From: Azadirachta indica | Lineage: Eukaryota > Streptophyta > Magnoliopsida > Sapindales > Meliaceae | Assembly (NCBI GenBank): GCA_022749755.1 | Contig: CM040448.1 | Span: 926,481 to 990,480, forward strand | Length of the DNA stretch: 64,000 nucleotides | Direction: 5' to 3' | In this document: piece after piece, positions 6,901-53,072 of the stretch | How the letters are laid out: every line of letters starts with the position of its first letter | Numbering within the stretch: position 1 is the first letter of the stretch | The notes under the pieces: model-generated | What the model was told of the DNA's origin: nothing | The model's input: the letters and a program-made list of their open reading frames with translations, nothing else | Database searches by the model: none | Translations under genes and position numbers: made by a program

Positions 6901-9809
6901 ATGAAATTCTCAGTGAGAAACGGAGGATAGAATTTAGTACATTGGATGATGCTGCAGAGGAGCCTAAACTTAGGGATATACAGTGTAATTCTGGACATAA
7001 TGTAGAGCCTGATACTGGAAATGAATTTGGTAGTATCAATGATCAGAAAAGCGTTTTGCATCCAGAACAAAAGAAACTAAGGTCTGTCGAGGTGGCTATT
7101 AGAAGAACCAGCTTCAAGCTGTCTATGGTATGATTTTAAAATTCGTTGCTACAATTTTCTTGAATTCTTGTTGAAGCATTAGTTGTGGTACAGCAACTTT
7201 TTCTTTCTTTCACAGGCGTTGGAAAAGAAAGCTAAGGCAGAAAAACTTTTAGCTGAGCTGGAGGAAAAGGAGTTTGTGCAGCAAACTGAATTAGATAAAG
7301 AGGGTGTAACCAAAGAAGAAAGATATATGCTAAGGAAAGTTGGCTTGAGAATGAAGGCATTCCTACTAATGGGTGAGTTCTACCATCTTGCTTGAGATTT
7401 TTGAACTCAAAGGAGCTGATTCACTATTTTTCTTTGTTTTAATGAATATTGTTTTAAAAGATTTTCCTTTTTTTTTAAAAAAAACAAACAAAGTTCAATC
7501 AGATGGCTCTTATAAAAGTGGGCAATAATGATCAATCTTCTTCTGGTGATTAGGTAGACGCGGGGTTTTTGATGGAACAGTTGAAAACATGCATCTTCAC
7601 TGGAAATATAGGGAACTAGTGAAGATAATATCGAAGCAGAAAAGCTTTGAAGCTGCTTATCAGGAAGCACGGACCTTAGAGGCAGAAAGCGGTGGTATTT
7701 TAGTAGCAGTCGAGAGGGTTAGTAAAGGTTATGCAATTATTGTGTATAGGGGAAAGAATTATAAAAGGCCTGAATGTTTGAGGCCTAAGACACTCCTGAC
7801 TAAAAGAGAAGCAATGAAGCGCTCCTTAGAGGCTCAGCGTCGTGAGGTAAAATTGCAAACTTGTACACTTCGTAGTTCATAGCAGAGTTTTCTTTCTCTA
7901 CGGTAATTTGAAAAAAGGAATGAACAAATAAATATCCATAATCACGAGGAGACTTTATTGACTTATGAGCTATGCTACATATGAACCGTGTTATGTTACA
8001 TGCAATGTCACTTGGTTTACACTTCCCAGTTTCCTGCTTTCTGTTTATTTCCTTTTAACAGTTTCCTCTAAACGATATCTACTTGAACTTATTAACTTTT
8101 GTACTTTATAATGCAGTCTCTGAAACTACATGTCTTGGAACTTGCCAGAAACATAGATAAACTGAAACTCCAGTTGGTGAGCTTTTAAATATTTGTACAT
8201 ATTTCGTATTAGATTGCCTATTCATGCCTGTGTTATCTAATTAAATTAAGATAACTTACAGAGTACTTTTTTGGCACAGGTCAAGGACAAGGAGGCAAAC
8301 GCTATGGAAATGGTTGACAAATCAAAATTGCCATTGGTAAGCAGCCTCATTTTTTTGTTCGTTCTTTTCCTTTTACTGAAGAAGGTTTATGATTTGAGAA
8401 TTGTCATAATCATAATGTAGGTTAAAGAGGAGATGTGCAATATGCAATCAGCCACGTGTATGAGATCAGATACTGAACTTAAATCTGACTCTTGCTTCAG
8501 TTTGGTAATTCCTACTTCCTATGAAGCGAATATAGAGGTAGGGCATTGGCAGTTAGATTTCATAAAGTGAACTTATAATGAGGATATGTACAAATATTAT
8601 GCCTGAAATGGTATTTGGTATGACTGCTTCAGGCTACAGAGGAACACGGAGCTGATTCAACTTCCACAGAATCAAATGATACCATGGATGCTACGATAGA
8701 TGATTCACAGGCCACTCAACAGTATAATAAGATTGATATTTCCTCAACACATCATCGGATTAGTAATTGTGAAACTGAATTTGAGTCATCTCATAATTCT
8801 GTAAACAAAGAATCCCAGGCAAATATAACCAAGGATTTGCACGGTGAAGGTCTATCTAGTGACTCTGCATCTTTGCCCGATACATCTATGGTAATATTTA
8901 GAATTTCTTCCATGCCTGATTTGAGTATATGCTTGATCTTTTCTTCTCATGTTTCTTATTGAAATTTCAGCTAGAAGGAATGACCCATTCTAGCATTGTT
9001 AACATGGAGCATTGTTCATCTGATCAGGAGCCAACAGAGTCGTCACTTCAATCGGCTGAAAGTATATCAGAATTATTGAATCCAATAGGGTTTGGAAATG
9101 TGTCGAATGAGACGGCTTCCAGAGCTATACAACTTTCCAACAGAGACAGGCTTCTCCTGCGAAGACAAGCTCTAAGAATGAAGAAACGCCCAGTGCTTGC
9201 CGTAGGTGATTTCAAAACTCTCTTATACTTCCTGTTTACCCCTTTTGCCATCTTTAGTGCAACTTTAGTTGGTTCCTGGTTATTATTTCCTTGCAATTAA
9301 TTGCAATCTAGGGAATTTATTTTTTCTTCTATGTCTTCTATTGTTACTAACTAGGGAGGAGCAATATTGTCACTGGTGTTGCAAAAGCAATAAATGCTCA
9401 CTTTCGGAAGCATCCTCTTGCTATAGTAAACGTTAAAGGCAGAGCCAAAGGAACTTCAGTTCAGGAAGTTGTTTCAAAGCTTCAGGTCTGCATTTCCAAA
9501 TTCACCTTTGTTTGAACCTACATTAAGTGTAATAACAATAGCTGTGATGACATCTTTTTCTTTGGTTCATTACACGTGCAGGAAGAAACGGGTGCAGTTC
9601 TAGTCTCTCAGGAGCCTAGTAAAGTCATACTGTACCGAGGCTGGGGTGCTGATGATGAATCAAACTACAGCAATAAGAAGGCTGCGAGACAGAAACCATC
9701 AATTGGAGGAGAGATTCGACCTCAGCCAGGTGCATCTCCAGAGCTACTCGCAGCAATCAGACTCGAATGCGGGTTGGAAGTTCACCAAGAGCAGCAAGCT
9801 TCTTTATAA
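3948..9809 (+). CDS. CFM2: CFM2-like chloroplast group II intron splicing factor, four CRM domains
   Basis: Thirteen exons: 3948-4646, 5281-5809, 5889-6019, 6789-7127, 7216-7372, 7554-7846, 8117-8176, 8280-8336, 8421-8537, 8633-8890, 8971-9205, 9355-9485 and 9582-9809, giving 1077 residues. The Ser/Thr-rich N-terminus looks like a transit peptide. Four CRM RNA-binding domains are visible, each with the GxxG-type loop: [33 protein letters not shown] and [11 protein letters not shown]; each ends in a YRG-type motif ([31 protein letters not shown]). Four CRM domains mark CFM2; CFM3 and CAF proteins have fewer. The family promotes splicing of plastid introns with partners such as CAF1/CAF2. A poorly conserved acidic/Ser-rich linker, spread over several short exons (8117-8890), separates CRM3 and CRM4. 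The ATG at 3948 is preferred over an open in-frame extension upstream that lacks an ATG-led transit peptide. Exon 9 has a second in-frame donor at 8505. Confidence 0.93.
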
Positions 9810-11030: not shown

Positions 11031-11081
11031 TAGGTTAAAACTTTAAGGTTAATGATGACGATCACGATCTCTCTTGATGTC

Positions 11082-11083
<2 letters not shown>

Positions 11084-11125
<42 letters not shown>
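11084..11125. repeat. (GA)n microsatellite
   Basis: About 21 uninterrupted GA units near the presumed 5' end of the first mimic locus. GA tracts in 5' leaders are binding sites for BBR/BPC GAGA-binding proteins; that role is inferred here. Confidence 0.95.
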
Positions 11126-11129
<4 letters not shown>

Positions 11130-11535
11130 CACAAAAAGCCTTGAACGAATTTTCCACTCTATTCTTTCTTTGTTTCAAAGGGCAAACCCTACCCACCCTA
11201 CAGCAATGATGTTGTCCTCAGCCTCATCTCTCTCTTCCTTTCTTTCTTTCTCTCATTCTCAAACCCACTACCATTGCCTTCTTCTCCATTGCCATCATTA
11301 TTCCCACCACTACTTACTATTATTCTCCACAAGCCTTCACCAACATTTCCTCATCATATCTATCTATCAGAAACCCAAAAAAGGGAAGAAGAGACACATG
11401 CATTTTTGCTCATCAAAGCAACCAGTACTGCTACTGCTGTTACTACCACCTTTTCATGTATGGGCTGCTGCTGCTGCCTAATTTTTGGTTCTTGGTTTTG
11501 AGTGAAGACTTTTAAAAGTCGTCACTTTGTCTACT

Positions 11536-11559
11536 GGGGAATCAAGCATCTTGGTCCGA
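11536..11559 (+). other. miR165/166 endogenous target-mimic site 1
   Basis: The 24 bases read GGGGAATCAAGC, then ATC, then TTGGTCCGA. Against miR166 (5' half UCGGACCAG, 3' half GCUUCAUUCCCC) positions 1-8 pair perfectly and position 9 is a G:U wobble. The three bases ATC are unpaired between miRNA positions 9 and 10. Positions 10-21 then pair except for one C:C mismatch at 14. This meets the published rules for plant endogenous target mimics (IPS1/miR399-type): perfect seed, a three-base bulge opposite positions 9-12, few other mismatches. Such a bulge blocks slicing, so the RNA would sequester rather than be cut by miR166, relieving HD-ZIP III mRNAs. Confidence 0.75.
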
Positions 11560-11780
11560 TGATTTAATTTGCTAGATTAAGCATATCTCTTTTATTTGCT
11601 TGTACAAGTATCTTAGATCTACCAGCTTGTTACTGCTAGGGTTTCTGAGTTCTTCTTTTTAGTACTTTTTAATTAACTAATGAGGGTATTGTTATGGTGA
11701 GATCGATTTAGAGTGTTTTGCTTCTGTACGAAGAGCAGTTTTATGTTGATATTGTATCTTTTGATTCTCTATATCATGTT

Positions 11781-13590: not shown

Positions 13591-13887
13591 TATTTATTAT
13601 ATATATAGTTACTTTTTGAAGCGTCTTGGGTGTAATCATAATCTCTCTGTCTCTTCACTATGTCAGAGGAGCGAAAGAGAAAGAGAAAGAGAGGCACGGA
13701 AACCCTAGAATGAATTTTTCTTCTCCTCTCTTTCAAACCCAACAAACATCAATCATCATGTCCTCTTACCATTTCCTCCATCATCATCATTACTCCCACA
13801 AATTGCCCACAAAACTCAAAGCATCATCATCATCACCATTATCTTTATCAACGAAAAGAGAAGAGAACACAACAAGAAAGAGGAAGA

Positions 13888-13926
13888 AAGAAGAAGAAGA
13901 AGAAGAAGAAGAAGAAGAAGAAGAAG
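13888..13926. repeat. (GAA)n microsatellite
   Basis: About 12-13 GAA units inside the second mimic locus; they account for the poly-Glu in the spurious ORF across it. Confidence 0.95.
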
Positions 13927-14032
13927 ATCATCATAAACAACAAATCTGAAGTTCTCTCTTTGCTTTACTAGTACTCACATCCTTTTGGAGCTGGTTATGA
14001 GAGAAGAAGAGAAGGATCTAGTTTCTCTTCTT

Positions 14033-14056
14033 GGGGAATCAAGCATCTTGGTCCGA
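14033..14056 (+). other. miR165/166 endogenous target-mimic site 2
   Basis: Identical over all 24 bases (and the following T) to the site at 11536-11559, while bases on either side differ (ctact versus ttctt before; gattta versus taatgt after). Pairing with miR166 is therefore the same: seed 1-8 perfect, G:U at 9, three-base bulge ATC, one mismatch at 14. It lies about 85 bases downstream of the last stop codon in the locus, in a non-coding position. Confidence 0.75.
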
Positions 14057-14260
14057 TTAATGTTTGTTACTTCGATTCAGTATTTTGTTTTTGTTTTCGT
14101 TAATCTTGTGCCCTGCTAGATAGCTAAGCTGAGGTATTGACATCCAAGTTTTTTTGTTATATGTTGAAGTAGATCTACCATATGTATGCATTGATTGTTG
14201 AGCTAATTAAGATCTTGAAATAGGGTTTATGAGTTTCTGGCTCTATGTGCCATGCTTGTA

Positions 14261-19681: not shown

Positions 19682-21674
19682 GGGTTTTTTCAGGTGGTAA
19701 AGAGAGGGGGTGGAAGCAAACGATTCACGGGTTCTGATGATTTTCTGTCTGCCAATAAAAGGTTTGTTTTTCTATGTATTTATTTGTGGTTTTACTTGGT
19801 TTCTCCATTATTTGTTCTCATTTTCCTTTTCTGAGTATGCTTTATCTGATATGTAAATGTTATTAAGTGCGTCTGGGATACTGTGATCATGTCATTCATC
19901 TTCATGACAAGAAGTTGAGAAAAAAAAAAAAAAGCTAAAGGAAATGGAATTTTTTGTCCTTGGAGAAATTATATTATTACAATATACTTTTAAACTTATC
20001 CTCGCTATCAAATAGAGAGATTTCAGCTTGGAAGATTATACCTTTGGATTGTCTGTGCTATGATAATTTGCTACTTGTTGCTGTTTATGTATGTCAAACA
20101 CTGCTTAAGCTTTAGATTGATAAGTTGAATGCCATTTTTCAGGCGACGAGTAAATGGTATTAAATGGAGACCCGGTGGCAATGGATTAGACGGTAGATGA
20201 CTAATATTGTTGATGCTATAATATCTTTTTCTTTTTGTTGTTAATTTTATTTGTCCTGATTCTGTGCCTTCGAGATGAATGAAGATTCTGGGATTGCTCG
20301 AAAAGATCTTCGATTAACACTAATGCGGAAAAGGCATGCTGAAGAGCAAAGGAAGAGGATCCTACGCGAAAAGCTTTCAAAATCTATTCAGCCTCCAGCC
20401 ACTGGAAATATGCTTCGCCGAGAGCCTGCTCAACCAAATGGACATAACCTTTTGAGGCAGTATCCTCCCTCGGAAATTTTGGATATGTCCCGAGAGGACT
20501 CACTGGGGAAATATTACTCTTCTCAGACCATGAATGGATTGAGGGTTAGATCTCCAGATACAGTGTGGACTGCGTCTAGGGAGCCCTCACTGAGAAGTTT
20601 CAATGATCCGCGGCAAGTACCAGCAACAAGGGTAGCTTCTGTCTCCAGAACTGGGCCGATTTTGAGGAAAGAAGTTGTTGTTACTTCTGGGCAGACAGGC
20701 CTTACTACTATGCAAGCCGTGACTGAAACTGCCAGGCCATTTCCACCAACTGGTTCTCATATGGTATTATCCTTGCTCTGGGTCCAGATCAGCTTGTTTT
20801 AGCAGAGCTGATTTATAGGAACCTTGGACTAACAAATTTACTTTGTTAAGGCATTTATATAGTATGCATTTGTGTAGTGTCCTTATCATGCTGTTTTTGG
20901 CTCTTCTACAGTTTATGGAACCTGTCAATGCTGCTAGCTTATTGCATTCACTTGGTTTGGGGAAATATGCAATTACTTTTCAAGCAGAAGAAGTAAGTAA
21001 CCTACACCTGTCAACTGTTTTACTCTGCTCCATGCTCAGAGATAAAACTCAGCTATTATCTATTTTTGTCAGAGCAAATTATACCCGATTGGGCGATAAT
21101 CACATTAAACTGCCAGGTTGCATTTTAGGCACTATGGCAAATTTACATTCTGAAACTTTTTCAGATTCTTGTCAAAGATATGACAGGAATAAACCTTAAT
21201 AAATTAAAATGCATAATGCAGATTTTGGAAATTTTTGAAATTTTTATTAATCCATCATTACAGGAAGGCACAACCTGGCAGATATTGTTAAACAAAATTT
21301 ATACTTTTATTTGTCAAGCCTTGATGCTAAAGGCGAGTGAATTTACACATTGAGAATTTGTAACACCTGGACATTTTGTGGTTATCTTTTGTCTTTAGAA
21401 CACTTAGATATATCTGATTTACAGGTGGACATGACTGCATTGAAACAGATGAGTGACAAGGACCTTAAAGAATTGGGAATACCAATGGTATTGTCCTATT
21501 CAATCTCCTTTCAATCATTTTTCATTTCCTAGAAGAAGAGTTTTGTATAAAGCTATTTACTTTCATATAATAGCCTGCTCAACTAGGCCATAACTGCAAT
21601 CTCCTTTCATTCAGGGACCAAGGAAGAAGATTCTGCTTGCGGTTCAGCCCCCTCCGAAACGACAACCGCCATAA
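19532..21674 (+). CDS. SAM (sterile alpha motif) domain protein
   Basis: Seven exons: 19532-19576, 19694-19761, 20143-20192, 20285-20763, 20912-20992, 21425-21487 and 21615-21674, giving 281 residues. The N-terminus MSEARVTITLGRTGQVVKRG is conserved in plant members. A basic, probably disordered middle (KDLRLTLMRKRHAEEQRKR, then a Pro/Ser/Arg-rich stretch) leads to a C-terminal SAM domain from about residue 215 (MEPVNAASLLHSLGLGKYAI ... MTALKQMSDKDLKELGIP ... PRKKILLAVQ). SAM domains mediate homo- and hetero-oligomerisation or RNA binding; this protein's role is unknown. The basic middle could direct it to the nucleus. The weakest point is the exon 4 acceptor: I chose 20285 because only that join keeps phase with the strong donor at 20193, although the preceding bases are not pyrimidine-rich. 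Confidence 0.88.
19646..19678. repeat. (GT)n microsatellite in intron 1
   Basis: About 16 GT units, directly followed by the pyrimidine tract of the intron 1 acceptor of the SAM gene; length variation here could affect splicing. Confidence 0.95.
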
Positions 21675-26766: not shown

Positions 26767-26802
26767 AGTCGAAGAATAAGATGAATTAAGCGCTGAGAGA
26801 TT

Positions 26803-28482
26803 ATGGAGATTCAAGGAGCTTTGATGAAGTTGATGATCGATAGTAACACAGAAAGTGCAGTAAATTCAAACGTAGGGAAGAAGACAAAAAGTCCGAAGCA
26901 GAAATGGAAGATTTCCTTATACAGGTCGTCTTCATCTTCATCAATTGGTATAAATAATCGTGATCAGGCGGCAAAGAAACAAACTCCCGAAGAGTTTCTG
27001 TGTCCGATTTCCGCCTCTTTAATGGCTGACCCCGTTATCGTTTCTTCCGGCCACACCTTCGAGCGAGCTTGCGTTCACTCTTGCAAAACCCTAGGCTTCA
27101 CGCCGACTCTCGCTGATAATACGACCCCGGATTTCTCCACTGTCATCCCTAATCTCGCTCTCAAATCCACCATACTCAAATGGTGCCAGAAACATTCCCT
27201 AAACCCGCCAAAGCCTCTCGATATTTCTTCCGCGGAGAAGCTTGTCCGTACACTAATGGCGTCGGGGCGGAAGAAGAACGATGCAGTTTCAGAGGAAGAG
27301 TTGATACAAGGAGTTAAAGAAAACCCTACAGTTAAATTCAACCACGCTGTGACTGAGTTAGCTCGACGACCGGGCCATTTCTACGCGAGCTCCGACGAAT
27401 CTGTCGGAACAATGTCAACTCCTCCTCTGCAACTAGCAACTCGGCCAAGTTGCTGCTACTCTTCTCCGTCTTCCTCAGAGCTTGAACCAACGTTAAACCC
27501 TAATAATAATAACTCAAACGAAGAGGAAGAATTCTTTGTCGGGAAACTGAAGAGCCCACAAGTGCACGAAAGCGAAGAAGCTTTAATTTCACTCAGAAAA
27601 ATTACGAGAACGAGAGAAGAAATCAGAATCACTCTATGTACAACACGTTTACTCTCAGCCCTACGATCTCTGATGATCTCGAAATACACTAACGTTCAAG
27701 TTAACGCCGTTGCGGCGTTAGTTAACTTATCCTTAGAGAAGACGAACAAAGTGAAGATCGTCCGGTCAGGAATCGTTCCTCCGTTAGTCGACGTGTTAAA
27801 GGGCGGACCTGCAGAAGCTCAGGAGCATGCAGCCGGCGCAATCTTTAGTTTAGCTCTCGACGACAGCAACAAAACCGCCATTGGCGTACTCGGCGCGCTG
27901 CCGCCGCTTCTACATTTGCTCGGATCAGAAAGTGAGCGAACTCGGCATGACTCAGCTTTAGCTTTGTATCATCTGTCGCTTGTAAAAAGTAACAGAGCGA
28001 AGTTAGTCAAGCTCGGATCGGTTCCAGTTTTACTGGGTATGGTCAAGTCGGGCCATATTCCGGGTCGGGTATTATTAATACTGGGTAATTTGGCTTCTTG
28101 TTCGGAGGGGCGGGTGGCTGTGTTGGATTCGGGCGGGGTGGAGTGTTTGGTGGATATGTTGAGAGACGGGAGCGAGTTGAGTGAGTCAACTCGGGAGAGT
28201 TGCGTGTCCGTTTTGTATGGACTGAGTCAGGGAGGATTAAGATTCAAGGGGCTGGCGACGGCGGCCGGCACGGTGGAGGTATTGAGGAAGTTGGAGAGAA
28301 TGGGAAGTGAACAGGCAAAAGAGAAGGCGAAGAGGATGCTGGATATGATGAAAGGACGAGCGGAGGAAGAGGATGAGGATGTGGATTGGGAAGAGTTGCT
28401 TGACTCGGGGTTAACGAGTCGGAGTCGGTTCCGACTCACTTGTGGCAGGGGTGAGTCAGTTGCCAACTCCTCCGACTTTTGA
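26803..28482 (+). CDS. U-box/ARM-repeat E3 ubiquitin ligase, PUB38-41 group
   Basis: Intronless, 559 residues. After a basic Ser-rich N-terminus, the U-box spans residues ~62-135: PEEFLCPISASLMADPVIVS then GHTFERACV ... FTPTLADNTTPDFSTVIPN ... LKSTILKWCQKH. It binds the ubiquitin-charged E2. After a variable linker, ARM repeats fill residues ~245-510 (TNVQVNAVAALVNLSLE, EAQEHAAGAIFSLALDDSNK, ERTRHDSALALYHLSLVKSN), probably binding substrate. Lack of the UND domain, length and ARM arrangement place it with PUB38/39/40/41, most like PUB40. In Arabidopsis PUB40 acts in brassinosteroid signalling in roots, degrading BZR1; the same role here is only inferred. The C-terminus is acidic (EEEDEDVDWEELLDSGLT). 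Two small overlapping ORFs lie in the presumed leader. Confidence 0.94.
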   Translation: MEIQGALMKLMIDSNTESAVNSNVGKKTKSPKQKWKISLYRSSSSSSIGINNRDQAAKKQTPEEFLCPISASLMADPVIVSSGHTFERACVHSCKTLGFTPTLADNTTPDFSTVIPNLALKSTILKWCQKHSLNPPKPLDISSAEKLVRTLMASGRKKNDAVSEEELIQGVKENPTVKFNHAVTELARRPGHFYASSDESVGTMSTPPLQLATRPSCCYSSPSSSELEPTLNPNNNNSNEEEEFFVGKLKSPQVHESEEALISLRKITRTREEIRITLCTTRLLSALRSLMISKYTNVQVNAVAALVNLSLEKTNKVKIVRSGIVPPLVDVLKGGPAEAQEHAAGAIFSLALDDSNKTAIGVLGALPPLLHLLGSESERTRHDSALALYHLSLVKSNRAKLVKLGSVPVLLGMVKSGHIPGRVLLILGNLASCSEGRVAVLDSGGVECLVDMLRDGSELSESTRESCVSVLYGLSQGGLRFKGLATAAGTVEVLRKLERMGSEQAKEKAKRMLDMMKGRAEEEDEDVDWEELLDSGLTSRSRFRLTCGRGESVANSSDF

Positions 28483-47545: not shown

Positions 47546-48678
47546 GATAGAATTCTAACTGAAATCAGCTATATGTGGAATATGAACAATGCTGAAAGCA
47601 GAAGCACTTTGTGTTATATTATATATGGCAGAAAAATGTTAACTTAACCAACATGCTACATATGATCTTATTACACCACATGTCTTGATTATCCGTAACT
47701 TCCCACGTGTTACAGTAAATTATCGTCAAAACTTAAAGGATCTAATTAAGACATTCCAATTTTGTAGATTTAGATAACTTAGTTTAAGACAAAGTTGTTG
47801 TAATGTAATTCTGACTAAATTAAAGGATATGAGATAATGACTTGTTGCCTAAGACATTAACTCATTTTTGAAATATATGGATTCTCTCTTGATCGACTAA
47901 ATACATAACAAATACTACATAATTGCATTTTTGTATTCCGAACGTCAACATGAACATTCCCCTACCAAATGAAAGGAATTGGACCGTACTTCACGAGGTT
48001 CTATATATATAACAAGCTCCTTCAAGCTGCCTGATTCGATGTACATCAGTAACCACTTGGTTTGATCCTAACAGCATCTGGGGTTTCTAATCTTGTAGCC
48101 AAGAACATGGAGGAGCAAGCAAACCAAACGACCAAAACAGTAAAAAATCCGACCTAAAAGTTTAAGCCACTCAGAAATAGAAGATAGAAGCCCAAACCGA
48201 TACAAAAGAAAAAATAAATACAAATGAAGTCTTTTAATAAAACTGGTTAAATTACTACTTGACTCAAAAATTTAAGTTGGTAGATAAGAATGCAAACAAT
48301 AGCATTAATCTTTGTTTGATATAAGAACCATCTTTCCTACAATGCGTTAGAAGGTGAAACCTTAAATGCTTCTTGAACCTTGATAAACAAGGCATGCAAC
48401 TTTACAGATAATATCAAGTCAACATTTCAGTAACAATAATATGAAAATTAACTTTGTATTTATTGATATAAGCTGTTGACACGAGAAATCTCAGCATATA
48501 CAACAGAATAAGAAATGGCTGGACTTGATTCTTTCCAATAGATAACTTGTGGAAGCAATACAGAAGTCAACAGAAACAATTACTTTTCATGCTTATTACA
48601 TTCTTTAGCTAACACAAACTGTCAATAGATCTTTTAAATAACATGCACCTCACTGATGTCACCTCAGTATCAGTGCAT

Positions 48679-50161
48679 TTACGGTGATTCTGGCTCAGCC
48701 CCGTCAGCCAAGTCTTCCTGCGCTGCTTCTTCTTCTGCTCCTCCTGCTGCTGCTTCTTCTCCTGCTGCCGCTTCTTCTTCTGCTCCTCCTCCTGCTTCTG
48801 CTCCTCCTCCTGCTTCTTCTCCTGCTGCTTCCTCCCCTCCTGCTGCTCCTCCTGCTCCTGCTTCTTCTTCTTCTGGTAGTGAAGATGGCGGTGGTGGTGG
48901 AGGACTTTTAGATGGCTTCTTTGCCGGAGGAGATTTTGGTTTCTTACCTGCCCCCTTCTTTCCTGCTCCTTTCTTGCCTGGGCCTTTCTTTCCTTTCTTT
49001 CCTTTCTTTCCTGCACCTTTCTTGCCTGCCCCTTTCTTGCCTAGGCCTTTCTTGCCGAGGCCTTTCTTTCCTGCCCCTTTCTTGCCTGCACCTTTCTTGC
49101 CTAGGCCTTTCTTCGCTTTTTTTGCTTTCTACACAGGATTAAAAATTGCAAAGAGAGAAAAACTTTTACAACCCTTGTAAACTCGAGTAAGAATTCGTCT
49201 AGTAGCAACTATATATGTAACTTGTGATGCAAGCAGTGTCTGTAAAAGTATACTACCTGCAGATTTGCATTCAAGTTAACCTGCTCTCCTCCAACTAACT
49301 TTTCCGTGGATGAAACCTACAAACAGAACAAGTTGAGTGAAAATCAAGTGCAGAGTGCCACACTAACTAAACAAGAGAACTGAGATATCAAACATTTTCT
49401 AAAAATTACATTGGCAAGATCAACCCCAGGTCCATCTGTTGCTGAAGCCTACAAGAAAAAGCGTATACGCCCACTTAATCATATATCAAAGAAAACTGAA
49501 ATTAGGATCTTCAGAACGTATATAACAAAAAATTGCAAATCTTGAAACTTTTATCAGCCTGTCAACTTGAATGGACTCATCTAGCAGCAGCAAGTAAACT
49601 GGTAACAAATGTTGTAATATGCACCTAAGAAAGAAATGAAGTTTCAAGTGCATAGAGCTGAAGTTCACAAGATTTTATTAGCATGTCATCATATTTGGCA
49701 TTAGAGCTAAATTAATTTACCGGCTTCACTTCATTTTGCTTCTCTTTTTCCTTCCCGTCAGATGAAACCTACAAAAGTGATACATCAATGCCATAAACAA
49801 AGAAGATGACTAAGATATAAAAGTTGTAAACAGATTACATTTTCCGACTGATATTTTACCTGATTTTTCAAACTGAGTTTGGAACCAGCCTACAAGAGGG
49901 AAAAGAAAAATAAAATTATTTAGGCATCAAATAAAATTATAAGTACCATAAAAATTTCAAAATCAGTGACAGCTGGGATATGAACATTACATTGTTCAGC
50001 AAAGGATCTTCTTCGCCAGATAAAACCTGCAAAAAGAATGGAACAGAAGTACTTAAGCTCCTTCTAAGTGTAATTGTTAAGAGGAAAGGCAGAGATTTTT
50101 TTACCGCTGTTGTGCAGAAAAGAAAAGCAGCTAGCAGAAACAGCACAGTTTTGAAAGCCAT
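48679..50161 (-). CDS. Secreted Lys/Gly-repeat protein with acidic tail
   Basis: Seven exons on the minus strand, all introns phase 0: 50105-50161, 49991-50026, 49860-49889, 49721-49768, 49410-49448, 49257-49316 and 48679-49128, giving 239 residues. I do not recognise the product. Residues 1-19 (MAFKTVLFLLAAFLFCTTA) are a signal peptide encoded by exon 1 alone. Five mini-exons of 10-20 codons follow, three starting VLS or VSS and two AGS or ASA. Exon 7 encodes about 12 GKKG-type units (GLGKKGAGKKGAGKKGLG, residues ~97-153), then SKSPPPPPPSSLP, then a Glu/Ala/Gly tail with almost no Lys. The result is a secreted, cysteine-free polyampholyte with a strongly basic and a strongly acidic half. It lies next to a GASA14-like gene with the same first-exon size. 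The frame was set by splice phase and the stop at 48679-48681; two other frames across exon 7 are also open. A wall-binding or scaffolding role would be a guess. Confidence 0.72.
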
Positions 50162-51771: not shown

Positions 51772-53072
51772 TCATGGGCACTTGATTCTGTTTCCATGGG
51801 TGGTCATATCAGTGTAGCACTTGCCACACATCTCTCTATTGCCATAAGTTCCCGGTGGTACACATTTGCACCTGTCACAGCATGTAATGCAAGCTCTAGC
51901 GCAGTAGTTTGGCCTTGAATGTGCTTTGCATCTTGCTGCACAGAGTGGAGTGCAATCTGCAAATAAAAGGAGCAAGAGTATTGTCAAAAATGTGAACAAC
52001 CAAAATATAAAAATTGAGCTTATGCTATAGCAGGGAAAGTATATATGAGTTACCCTTTCTTGTCCTGACTCTTGGCATTGGCGGCCCGGCCGGTGAAGGA
52101 ACTTGGGGCGGTGCAGGAGCTGTTTTTGGTGGGCTCACTGGTGGTGTAGTTGTGGGGGGCTTCGCTGGTGGAGGTGGGGCTGTTTTGGGTGGGTACACGG
52201 GCGGCGGTGGGGTTGCTTTGGGTGGGTACACTGGTGGTGGTGGGGTTGTTTTGGGCGGGTTCACTGGTGGTGGTGGGGTTGTTTTGGGTGGATTCACTGG
52301 CGGTTTCACTGGTGGGGGTGGAGTTGTTTTGGGAGGCTTCACTGGTGGTGGTGGTGGTGGTGTACTCGTGGGTGGCTTCACTGGAGCCTTAGGAGGAGCT
52401 GGTACTGGGGCTTTGGGGTAAGTATCCTGCAAAAGAATGAAATTGTCAAATTACACATCACTAGCAAAGGCGATTAGGTGAGCTTGAGTAGGTTCTCCCA
52501 ACTAAATTGAGAGCTCCAAAATAAAAAAAACAATATTTACTTGGTTGTTGAGCCCAAAATGCGAATCATCTAATAAACTTTCCAGCAATGACAAACTCAA
52601 ATAGATCACTAATCTAGCTACTACTACAAGTAAAACCACAAGGGAGTAAGCCATTTTCTTGTAATGACGTTCTATAAACTGAAGATTATAGTACATGTAT
52701 GTTTTTCCATGAATCTAAATGTAAAAACAGTTAAAAGCATCCATTTTTACACTATAAACTGTATGTGACAAAAGTTGGGTTTTTAGAGCATAAGCTGAAC
52801 TTCTATTTTATTTCAGCTACCATATTTGACATCAGTAACCAAACAAGAGAACCGAGACACAAACATTGTACATGAAATACCTTTTCCATCTGATATTCCT
52901 CCTCATTGTTAGATGAAACCTACAAAAGCAACAAACAGACTAACATATTAAGAGATCAAACAGAACAGAAGATATTATGCATGAAACTGTTAAGAGAAGA
53001 GACAGAGAGCCATACTTTTGTAGCTACCAGGAGCAAAGTGGCCAACAGAAGCAAAGCAGCTCTGAGAGTCAT
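51772..53072 (-). CDS. GASA14: GASA14-like gibberellin-regulated protein, Pro-rich with C-terminal GASA domain
   Basis: Four exons on the minus strand: 53016-53072, 52881-52919, 52054-52426 and 51772-51956, giving 217 residues. Exon 1 encodes the signal peptide (MTLRAALLLLATLLLVATK), exon 2 VSSNNEEEYQMEK, exon 3 a Pro/Val/Lys/Thr-rich domain of TPPPPVNPPKTTPPPPVYPP-type repeats (residues ~35-150), and exon 4 the GASA/snakin domain (~158-217), starting DCTPLCAARC and ending GNRIKCP, with all 12 conserved cysteines. Only GASA14-type members combine the long Pro-rich domain with the GASA module. Arabidopsis GASA14 acts in the wall, promotes leaf growth and lowers reactive oxygen under stress, downstream of gibberellin/DELLA. 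The proline repeats may be hydroxylated and anchor it to the wall. Intron 2 contains an extra in-phase signal-peptide-like exon (52541-52654). Confidence 0.93.
52541..52654 (-). other. Possible alternative first exon in GASA14 intron 2
   Basis: ATG at 52654 opens 38 codons (MAYSLVVLLVVVARLVIYLS, then LSLLESLLDDSHFGLNNQ) and runs into a good donor, CAA-gtaaat, in phase 0, the phase needed to join GASA14 exon 3. The product would be a signal peptide or signal anchor on the Pro-rich/GASA part. It may instead be a relic first exon of a lost tandem GASA gene. Confidence 0.4.

Follow-up and report, generated by a model that had tools for sequence, protein, structure and literature searches.

A bulged miR166-binding site, probably an endogenous target mimic, downstream of short open reading frames in neem (Azadirachta indica)

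A 24-base site that pairs with miR166 around a central three-base bulge occurs in two identical copies in a 64,000-nucleotide stretch of the neem genome (hereafter the window, C9:926481-990480), and it probably represents an endogenous miR166 target mimic that has been conserved in the 3′-UTR of an mRNA carrying a short open reading frame (ORF). It is well established that the dose of HD-ZIP III in leaves, meristems and vessels is determined by miR166. In the mechanism proposed here, each of the two tandem loci would give rise to a short mRNA, whose site would be bound by the seed and 3′ half of AGO-loaded miR166, and the central three-base bulge would block slicing; miR166 would thereby be held, and perhaps degraded, and HD-ZIP III mRNAs would be partly spared. 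The genome searched comprises 280,826,157 bases in 21 contigs, and the two sites of the window are as follows:

11536..11559 (genome C9:938016), plus strand: bulged miR166-binding site, copy 1 (c1), characterized by pairing, duplex energy and chance controls
14033..14056 (genome C9:940513), plus strand: identical bulged miR166-binding site, copy 2 (c2), found by the pairing scan

Elsewhere in the window, a U-box protein encoded at 26800-28482 is 93% identical to a protein of Melia azedarach, with matches in Pistacia, Xanthoceras and Acer further down; all four genera belong to Sapindales. Overlapping low-complexity frames on both strands (of the KKGAGKKG type, and proline-rich on the minus strand) were also observed at 48609-49180 and 52011-52477.

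The 24-mer of copy 1, GGGGAATCAAGCATCTTGGTCCGA, was paired with the miR166 reference sequence UCGGACCAGGCUUCAUUCCCC. In both copies, miRNA nt 1-8 and the 3′ half are paired and three target bases in the centre are unpaired, and the imperfect positions outside the bulge are a G:U pair at nt 9 and a C:C mismatch at nt 14, so that the seed and 3′-half pairing and both imperfections described for 11536-11559 in an earlier note on this DNA are borne out. The ATC bulge which that note placed between nt 9 and 10 is a valid drawing but not a unique one, as CAT after nt 10 (the IPS1 register) is equivalent and leaves the same two imperfect positions. The IPS1-like geometry that it proposed therefore holds, with a three-base central bulge and the nt 10/11 register available, and the second copy implied by its wording is the identical 24-mer at 14033-14056 on the plus strand.

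Several controls indicate how rarely such pairing arises. A miR166 scan of both window strands with bulges of 0-6 nt (mismatch 1, G:U 0.5) ranked 11536 and 14033 at the top with a score of 1.5 each, the next-best unrelated place scoring 5.0. For 22 other plant miRNAs, the best window scores with a 3-nt bulge were 3.5-6.0 compared with 1.5 for miR166, and the best window score of 300 shuffled versions of miR166 was 3.5, none of them (0/300) reaching 3 or below. Since neither set scored nearly as well, the bulged site is not a product of chance. The predicted duplex energy of c1 and c2 is -29.2 kcal/mol, versus -44.1 for a perfect site, and 18,280 window 24-mers sampled at every 7th position on both strands had a mean of -6.4 and a minimum of -27.3 kcal/mol.

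Both the miRNA and genes of the type that it controls are encoded in this genome. The sequence TCGGACCAGGCTTCATYCCCC occurs at seven places, all of which are miR166 and none miR165 (7/7 versus 0/7), so the name miR165/166 used previously has to be narrowed to miR166; each of the seven exact miR166 sequences lies in a foldable hairpin with 17-19 of the 21 mature bases paired, and of two near-copies within two mismatches, one lies 162 bases from an exact copy and the other has only 10 mature bases paired. With none of the seven exact sequences on C9, the window locus does not appear to be a MIR166 gene, and an Rfam scan of the window returned no family at its cut-off. Ten matches to the MEKHLA domain in five loci (two on C12 and one each on C7, C3 and C13) mark genes of HD-ZIP III type, and none of the ten is on C9, the contig of the window. 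An unbroken HD-ZIP III miR166 site gave no match in the genomic DNA; an intron splits that site. The earlier note was right that the site is no ordinary HD-ZIP III target, as it is bulged and C9 has no MEKHLA match, but its argument that the bulge would interrupt START-domain codons was loose, since three bases keep the frame; the better argument is the lack of an HD-ZIP III gene on C9 together with the absence of the unbroken site from genomic DNA. Two arrangements of miR166 genes were observed in passing. On C5, two miR166 sequences (9377790 and 9377952) lie 162 bases apart on the same strand and may form a double MIR166 precursor. On C2, between 14.55 and 14.70 Mb, miR166 genes of equal fold energy at 14601228 and 14695155 lie on opposite strands 94 kb from each other, and equal-score matches to a CFM-like exon lie 100 kb apart (14551515, 14651666); these pairs may stem either from a segmental duplication of recent date or from duplication in the assembly.

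The bulged site is rare in the genome as a whole. Exact matches to GGGGAATNAAGCNNNYTGGTCCGA number three, with none for the reversed pattern, and allowing up to three mismatches gives 10 places, namely the three exact ones, one with a single mismatch (c4) and six with two or three. These six (two on C8, two on C6 and one each on C13 and C2) were set aside as bulged sites because the reversed control gives three matches at the same setting; both C8 matches sit within one short repeated stretch, and one C6 place has an identical twin 60 kb away. The C13 place among the six (C13:14562018-14562041, L014), AGGGGATGAAGCTTCTTGGTCCGA, pairs well with miR166 (-33.8 kcal/mol, nt 14 paired) and is a candidate single-copy bulged site; it falls in a range where the pattern search also yields chance matches. 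The looser two-half pattern GGGGAATNAAGN{2,9}GGTCCGA finds 11 places and its control none; seven correspond to miR166 on the opposite strand and four are the bulged sites c1-c4, which adds the following two:

C6:4552672 (L004:3673-3696): bulged site c3, found by the two-half pattern search
C6:3625334 (L012:1501-1524): bulged site c4, found by the two-half pattern search, with a related short ORF upstream

All four sites consist of GGGGAATCAAGC, five central bases and GGTCCGA, and the central five (ATCTT in c1 and c2, CTGCT in c3, GTCTC in c4) hold the sole varying letters. These letters form the bulge together with the two positions opposite nt 8 and 9 of the miRNA, the 3′ half and nt 1-7 being intact. 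Target mimics are reportedly defined by the rules of Wu et al. 2013 as having perfect pairing at nt 2-8 and no more than three mismatches plus G:U outside the bulge; c1, c2 and c3 conform to these rules, and c4 leaves nt 8 unpaired unless its bulge is placed after nt 7. Under the criteria given in PMC3441763 (a bulge of 3-5 nt facing nt 10-12, at most four mismatches and no further bulge), c1 and c2 also qualify. Several features of the sites count against mimicry. No register tried gives c4 perfect pairing at nt 8-9. The C facing nt 14 is a mismatch common to all four sites, and a genome search for a miR166 variant with G at nt 14, which would pair with it, gave no exact hit among nine matches within two mismatches. 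In addition, structure prediction does not show the site to be exceptionally accessible, its mean unpaired probability being 0.34 in c1, 0.32 in c2, 0.34 in c4 and 0.36 in c3, and that of the surrounding 424 nt being 0.42, 0.39, 0.39 and 0.37, respectively.

The RNA that carries the site is probably an mRNA in which a conserved short ORF is followed by the site in the 3′-UTR. Upstream of each copy in the window lie an ORF and a GA-rich leader, and a further segment shared with other loci follows copy 1:

11047..11124, plus strand: leader of copy 1, GA-rich stretch ATGTCAGGAGAGAG..., alignable with the copy 2 leader
11125..11481, plus strand: 118-codon short ORF (stop codon excluded) preceding copy 1, the site starting 55 nt after it; weak similarity to the proteins P0121-P0123 described below
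11571..11586, plus strand: GCTAGATTAAGCATAT just 3′ of copy 1; c4 has GCTAGATCAAGCAAAT, and a willow protein LDQAN, at a like place
13660..13709, plus strand: leader of copy 2, GA-rich stretch ATGTCAGAGGAG..., alignable with the copy 1 leader
13710..13949, plus strand: 79-codon short ORF (stop codon excluded) preceding copy 2, the site starting 84 nt after it; similarity to P0121-P0123

The copy 1 frame has an additional ATG at 11077 and is the only stop-to-stop frame of at least 120 codons in the 11-kb stretch between the ORF ending at 9300 and the one starting at 20260. Upstream of c4 is an ORF of 78 codons, with the site 60 nt after its stop, and upstream of c3 one of 40 codons, with the site 81 nt after. 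Among 500 shuffles of the same stretch, the ORF length was reached in 0 cases for c1, 5 for c2, 7 for c4 and 219 for c3, so the first three ORFs are longer than expected by chance and the c3 ORF is not. As the c3 ORF also found no relative in the protein search, the short-ORF claim was dropped for that locus.

An alignment of the c1, c2 and c4 ORFs (25% identity to the first row) was used for a protein search, which returned three proteins with E ≤10 among 179 candidates: the Salix viminalis entry P0121 (E 7.9e-9) and the JGI proteins P0122 (E 9.5e-8) and P0123 (E 4.1e-5). These E-values lean on composition because the proteins are rich in His, Ser and Glu; the relatives also contain the specific stretches PT(A/S)IIMPSSS, HHHYPL and LHIPKPK. 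No domain was found by a Pfam scan of P0121, P0122 and the c4 ORF. Downstream of the related ORF, P0121 continues at a like place through SNNFSGESSVSVRSIFNLLDQAN. Comparison of P0121 with translated c4, with filters and composition correction off, showed that the c4 24-mer, translated in frame 1, gives exactly the GESSVSVR of P0121, and that SNN before and LDQAN after this segment match c4 in other frames. We read P0121 as a related willow locus that appears to keep the site, with a gene model reading through it. It is the one relative of the three that reaches the site, a count that weighs against mimicry. Searches of non-plant collections gave 82 pattern-matching stretches in viral contigs, none confirmed, nothing in a second viral search and nothing in bacterial and archaeal genomes; coming from collections other than plants, these blanks say little. 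The earlier note had called the locus non-coding and the element outside any conserved ORF; the 24-mer does lie outside the short ORF, but that ORF, of 118 or 79 codons, ends 55 or 84 nt upstream of it, and the reading of the carrier as possibly coding is founded on ORFs longer than nearly all shuffles, on the relatives P0121-P0123 and on three of the four sites lying 55-84 nt downstream.

The main rival to mimicry is that miR166 regulates the short-ORF mRNA itself, restraining or destabilizing it without slicing, so that the peptide would be the output and any effect on the miR166 pool negligible. Such regulation would suit a site placed 55-84 nt behind an ORF with willow relatives whose length exceeds chance expectation at three of the four loci. 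We nevertheless regard it as unlikely: the peptide is poorly kept (25% to the first row) and the site almost letter for letter, and centrally bulged sites are poor repressors in plants, their geometry being known as that of a decoy (PMC8005961, PMC6162444).

The contrast between the site and its surroundings is a reason for considering the site a probable working decoy, as the site has been kept much more closely than the adjoining sequence. Between c1 and c2, 25/25 site bases are identical compared with approximately 49% outside, and in the six pairwise alignments of c1-c4 (regions of ~600 bases) the site plus one base has 25, 23, 22, 23, 22 and 21 of 25 identical positions. Identity outside the site in the same alignments is 42-50%, a level at which unrelated sequence, above all that of c3, could align. 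The longest exact word that c1 and c2 have in common measures 26 bases, and 40 dinucleotide shuffles give at most 14. Although a repeat finder (at least 60 bases, window 8000-40000) detected no duplication between the copies, and a 161-base query around copy 1 matched only itself in the genome and not copy 2, short-word BLASTN and MAFFT indicated diverged homology of the two regions. Common ancestry of c1, c2 and c4 is supported by the leader and ORF features that they have in common; the flanks of c3 bear no clear relation to the other three loci, which again tells against mimicry. One CFM-like exon of the window, taken as a gene-order marker, had eight genome matches, none near c3 or c4, so gene order in common was not found with it. 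Across the four loci and the willow relative, selection seems to act on both pairing halves and not on the centre. A similar pattern, in which the binding sites of mimics of the same miRNA are well conserved and the rest is variable, is reportedly described in the abstract of Wu et al. 2013.

These comparisons also bear on the possibility that the two identical 24-mers are functionless relics of a young tandem duplication. That many predicted target mimics are unproven favours such a relic, but the c1 and c2 flanks have diverged to about 49% while the site is identical, and the site is kept at two further loci on another contig and in a willow protein, which makes a relic improbable. Smaller still is the chance that the 24-mer is kept as the code for an octapeptide (GESSxxVR) and not for miR166 binding. 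No stop interrupts the frame across the site in the P0121 gene model from willow or in a 40-codon c2 ORF (13997-14119), yet in c1 it has no ATG and meets a stop directly after the site, and both the listed c1 ORFs and the long c4 ORF end before the site. Moreover, none of the four loci differs in the first 12 bases, third codon positions included, which peptide constraint would not require, and the match to miR166 exceeds chance in both halves.

The 5′ miR390 site of TAS3 is a non-cleaved anchor for secondary small-RNA production, and although a bound, uncut miR166 site would fit such use, the presumed transcript has no second miR166 site and the copies lie ~2.5 kb apart with a leader and ORF each, so this reading is the least credible of all.

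Target mimicry of miR166 is thus the favoured reading, and its kind is already known; the rise in HD-ZIP III activity that the earlier note expected would follow from it. The mimics ath-eTM166-1 (Arabidopsis) and osa-eTM166-2 (rice) are said to come from Wu et al. 2013 and csi-eTM166 of sweet orange from Ke et al. 2019; Citrus also belongs to Sapindales. Both ath-eTM166-1 and osa-eTM166-2 are functional miR166 mimics (PMC8005961; PMC6162444 names the Arabidopsis one) whose overexpression alters leaf shape and raises miR166 targets (PMC8005961, PMC4683531, PMC6162444), and centrally bulged miR166 mimics are functional in other plants (PMC8005961, PMC4683531). By description, they resemble the neem sites in being endogenous miR166-binding RNAs with a central bulge, but they are described as intergenic or non-coding, whereas the neem carrier probably has a conserved short ORF and forms a tandem pair. 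The tomato RNA slylnc0195 (PMC4683531) and csi-eTM166 (PMC8861278, PMC8215657) are reported as miR166 decoys in other eudicots, a likeness that again is one of description. The IPS1/At4 mimics of miR399 have a three-nucleotide bulge between miRNA nt 10 and 11 (PMC5785843, PMC3441763), which is one of the two c1/c2 registers, and share the combination of a short conserved site and an otherwise variable RNA; they differ in the miRNA, which is miR166 at the neem sites. With miR166 mimics reported in Arabidopsis, rice, tomato and sweet orange, the neem family would add a member to a known kind, and since csi-eTM166 could be an orthologue of one neem locus, part of it could already be known in Citrus.

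Among the matches listed from the open-access subset, neither the literature on Meliaceae together with miR166 or mimics nor that on miR166 mimics with short ORFs or tandem duplication contains a report of this family. In PMC9918958 and PMC11478739, both of which name miR166, the passages on Azadirachta consist of the cited title of a paper on neem miRNAs, and passages of the poplar lncRNA paper PMC9135444 give eTMs for other miRNAs and name miR166 once, without an eTM. A text search for pieces of the site returned no plant paper, the lone match being on glial cells.

A bolder proposal, which we put forward tentatively and hold to be somewhat less likely than not, is that a rosid gene family present in at least Meliaceae and willow may make a bifunctional mRNA, encoding a conserved short peptide rich in His and Glu/Lys and carrying a conserved miR166 decoy that resists cleavage in its 3′-UTR, with tandem duplication having changed the decoy dose. 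If this were true, peptide expression and miR166 titration would be coupled. Many plant miRNA decoys have been predicted from one genome without a sign of selection. The present family would lend itself well to testing whether native decoys have an effect at the levels found in nature, because comparison of the four diverged loci and a relative in willow indicates the positions on which selection seems to act, and the linked short ORF provides a handle for finding orthologues.
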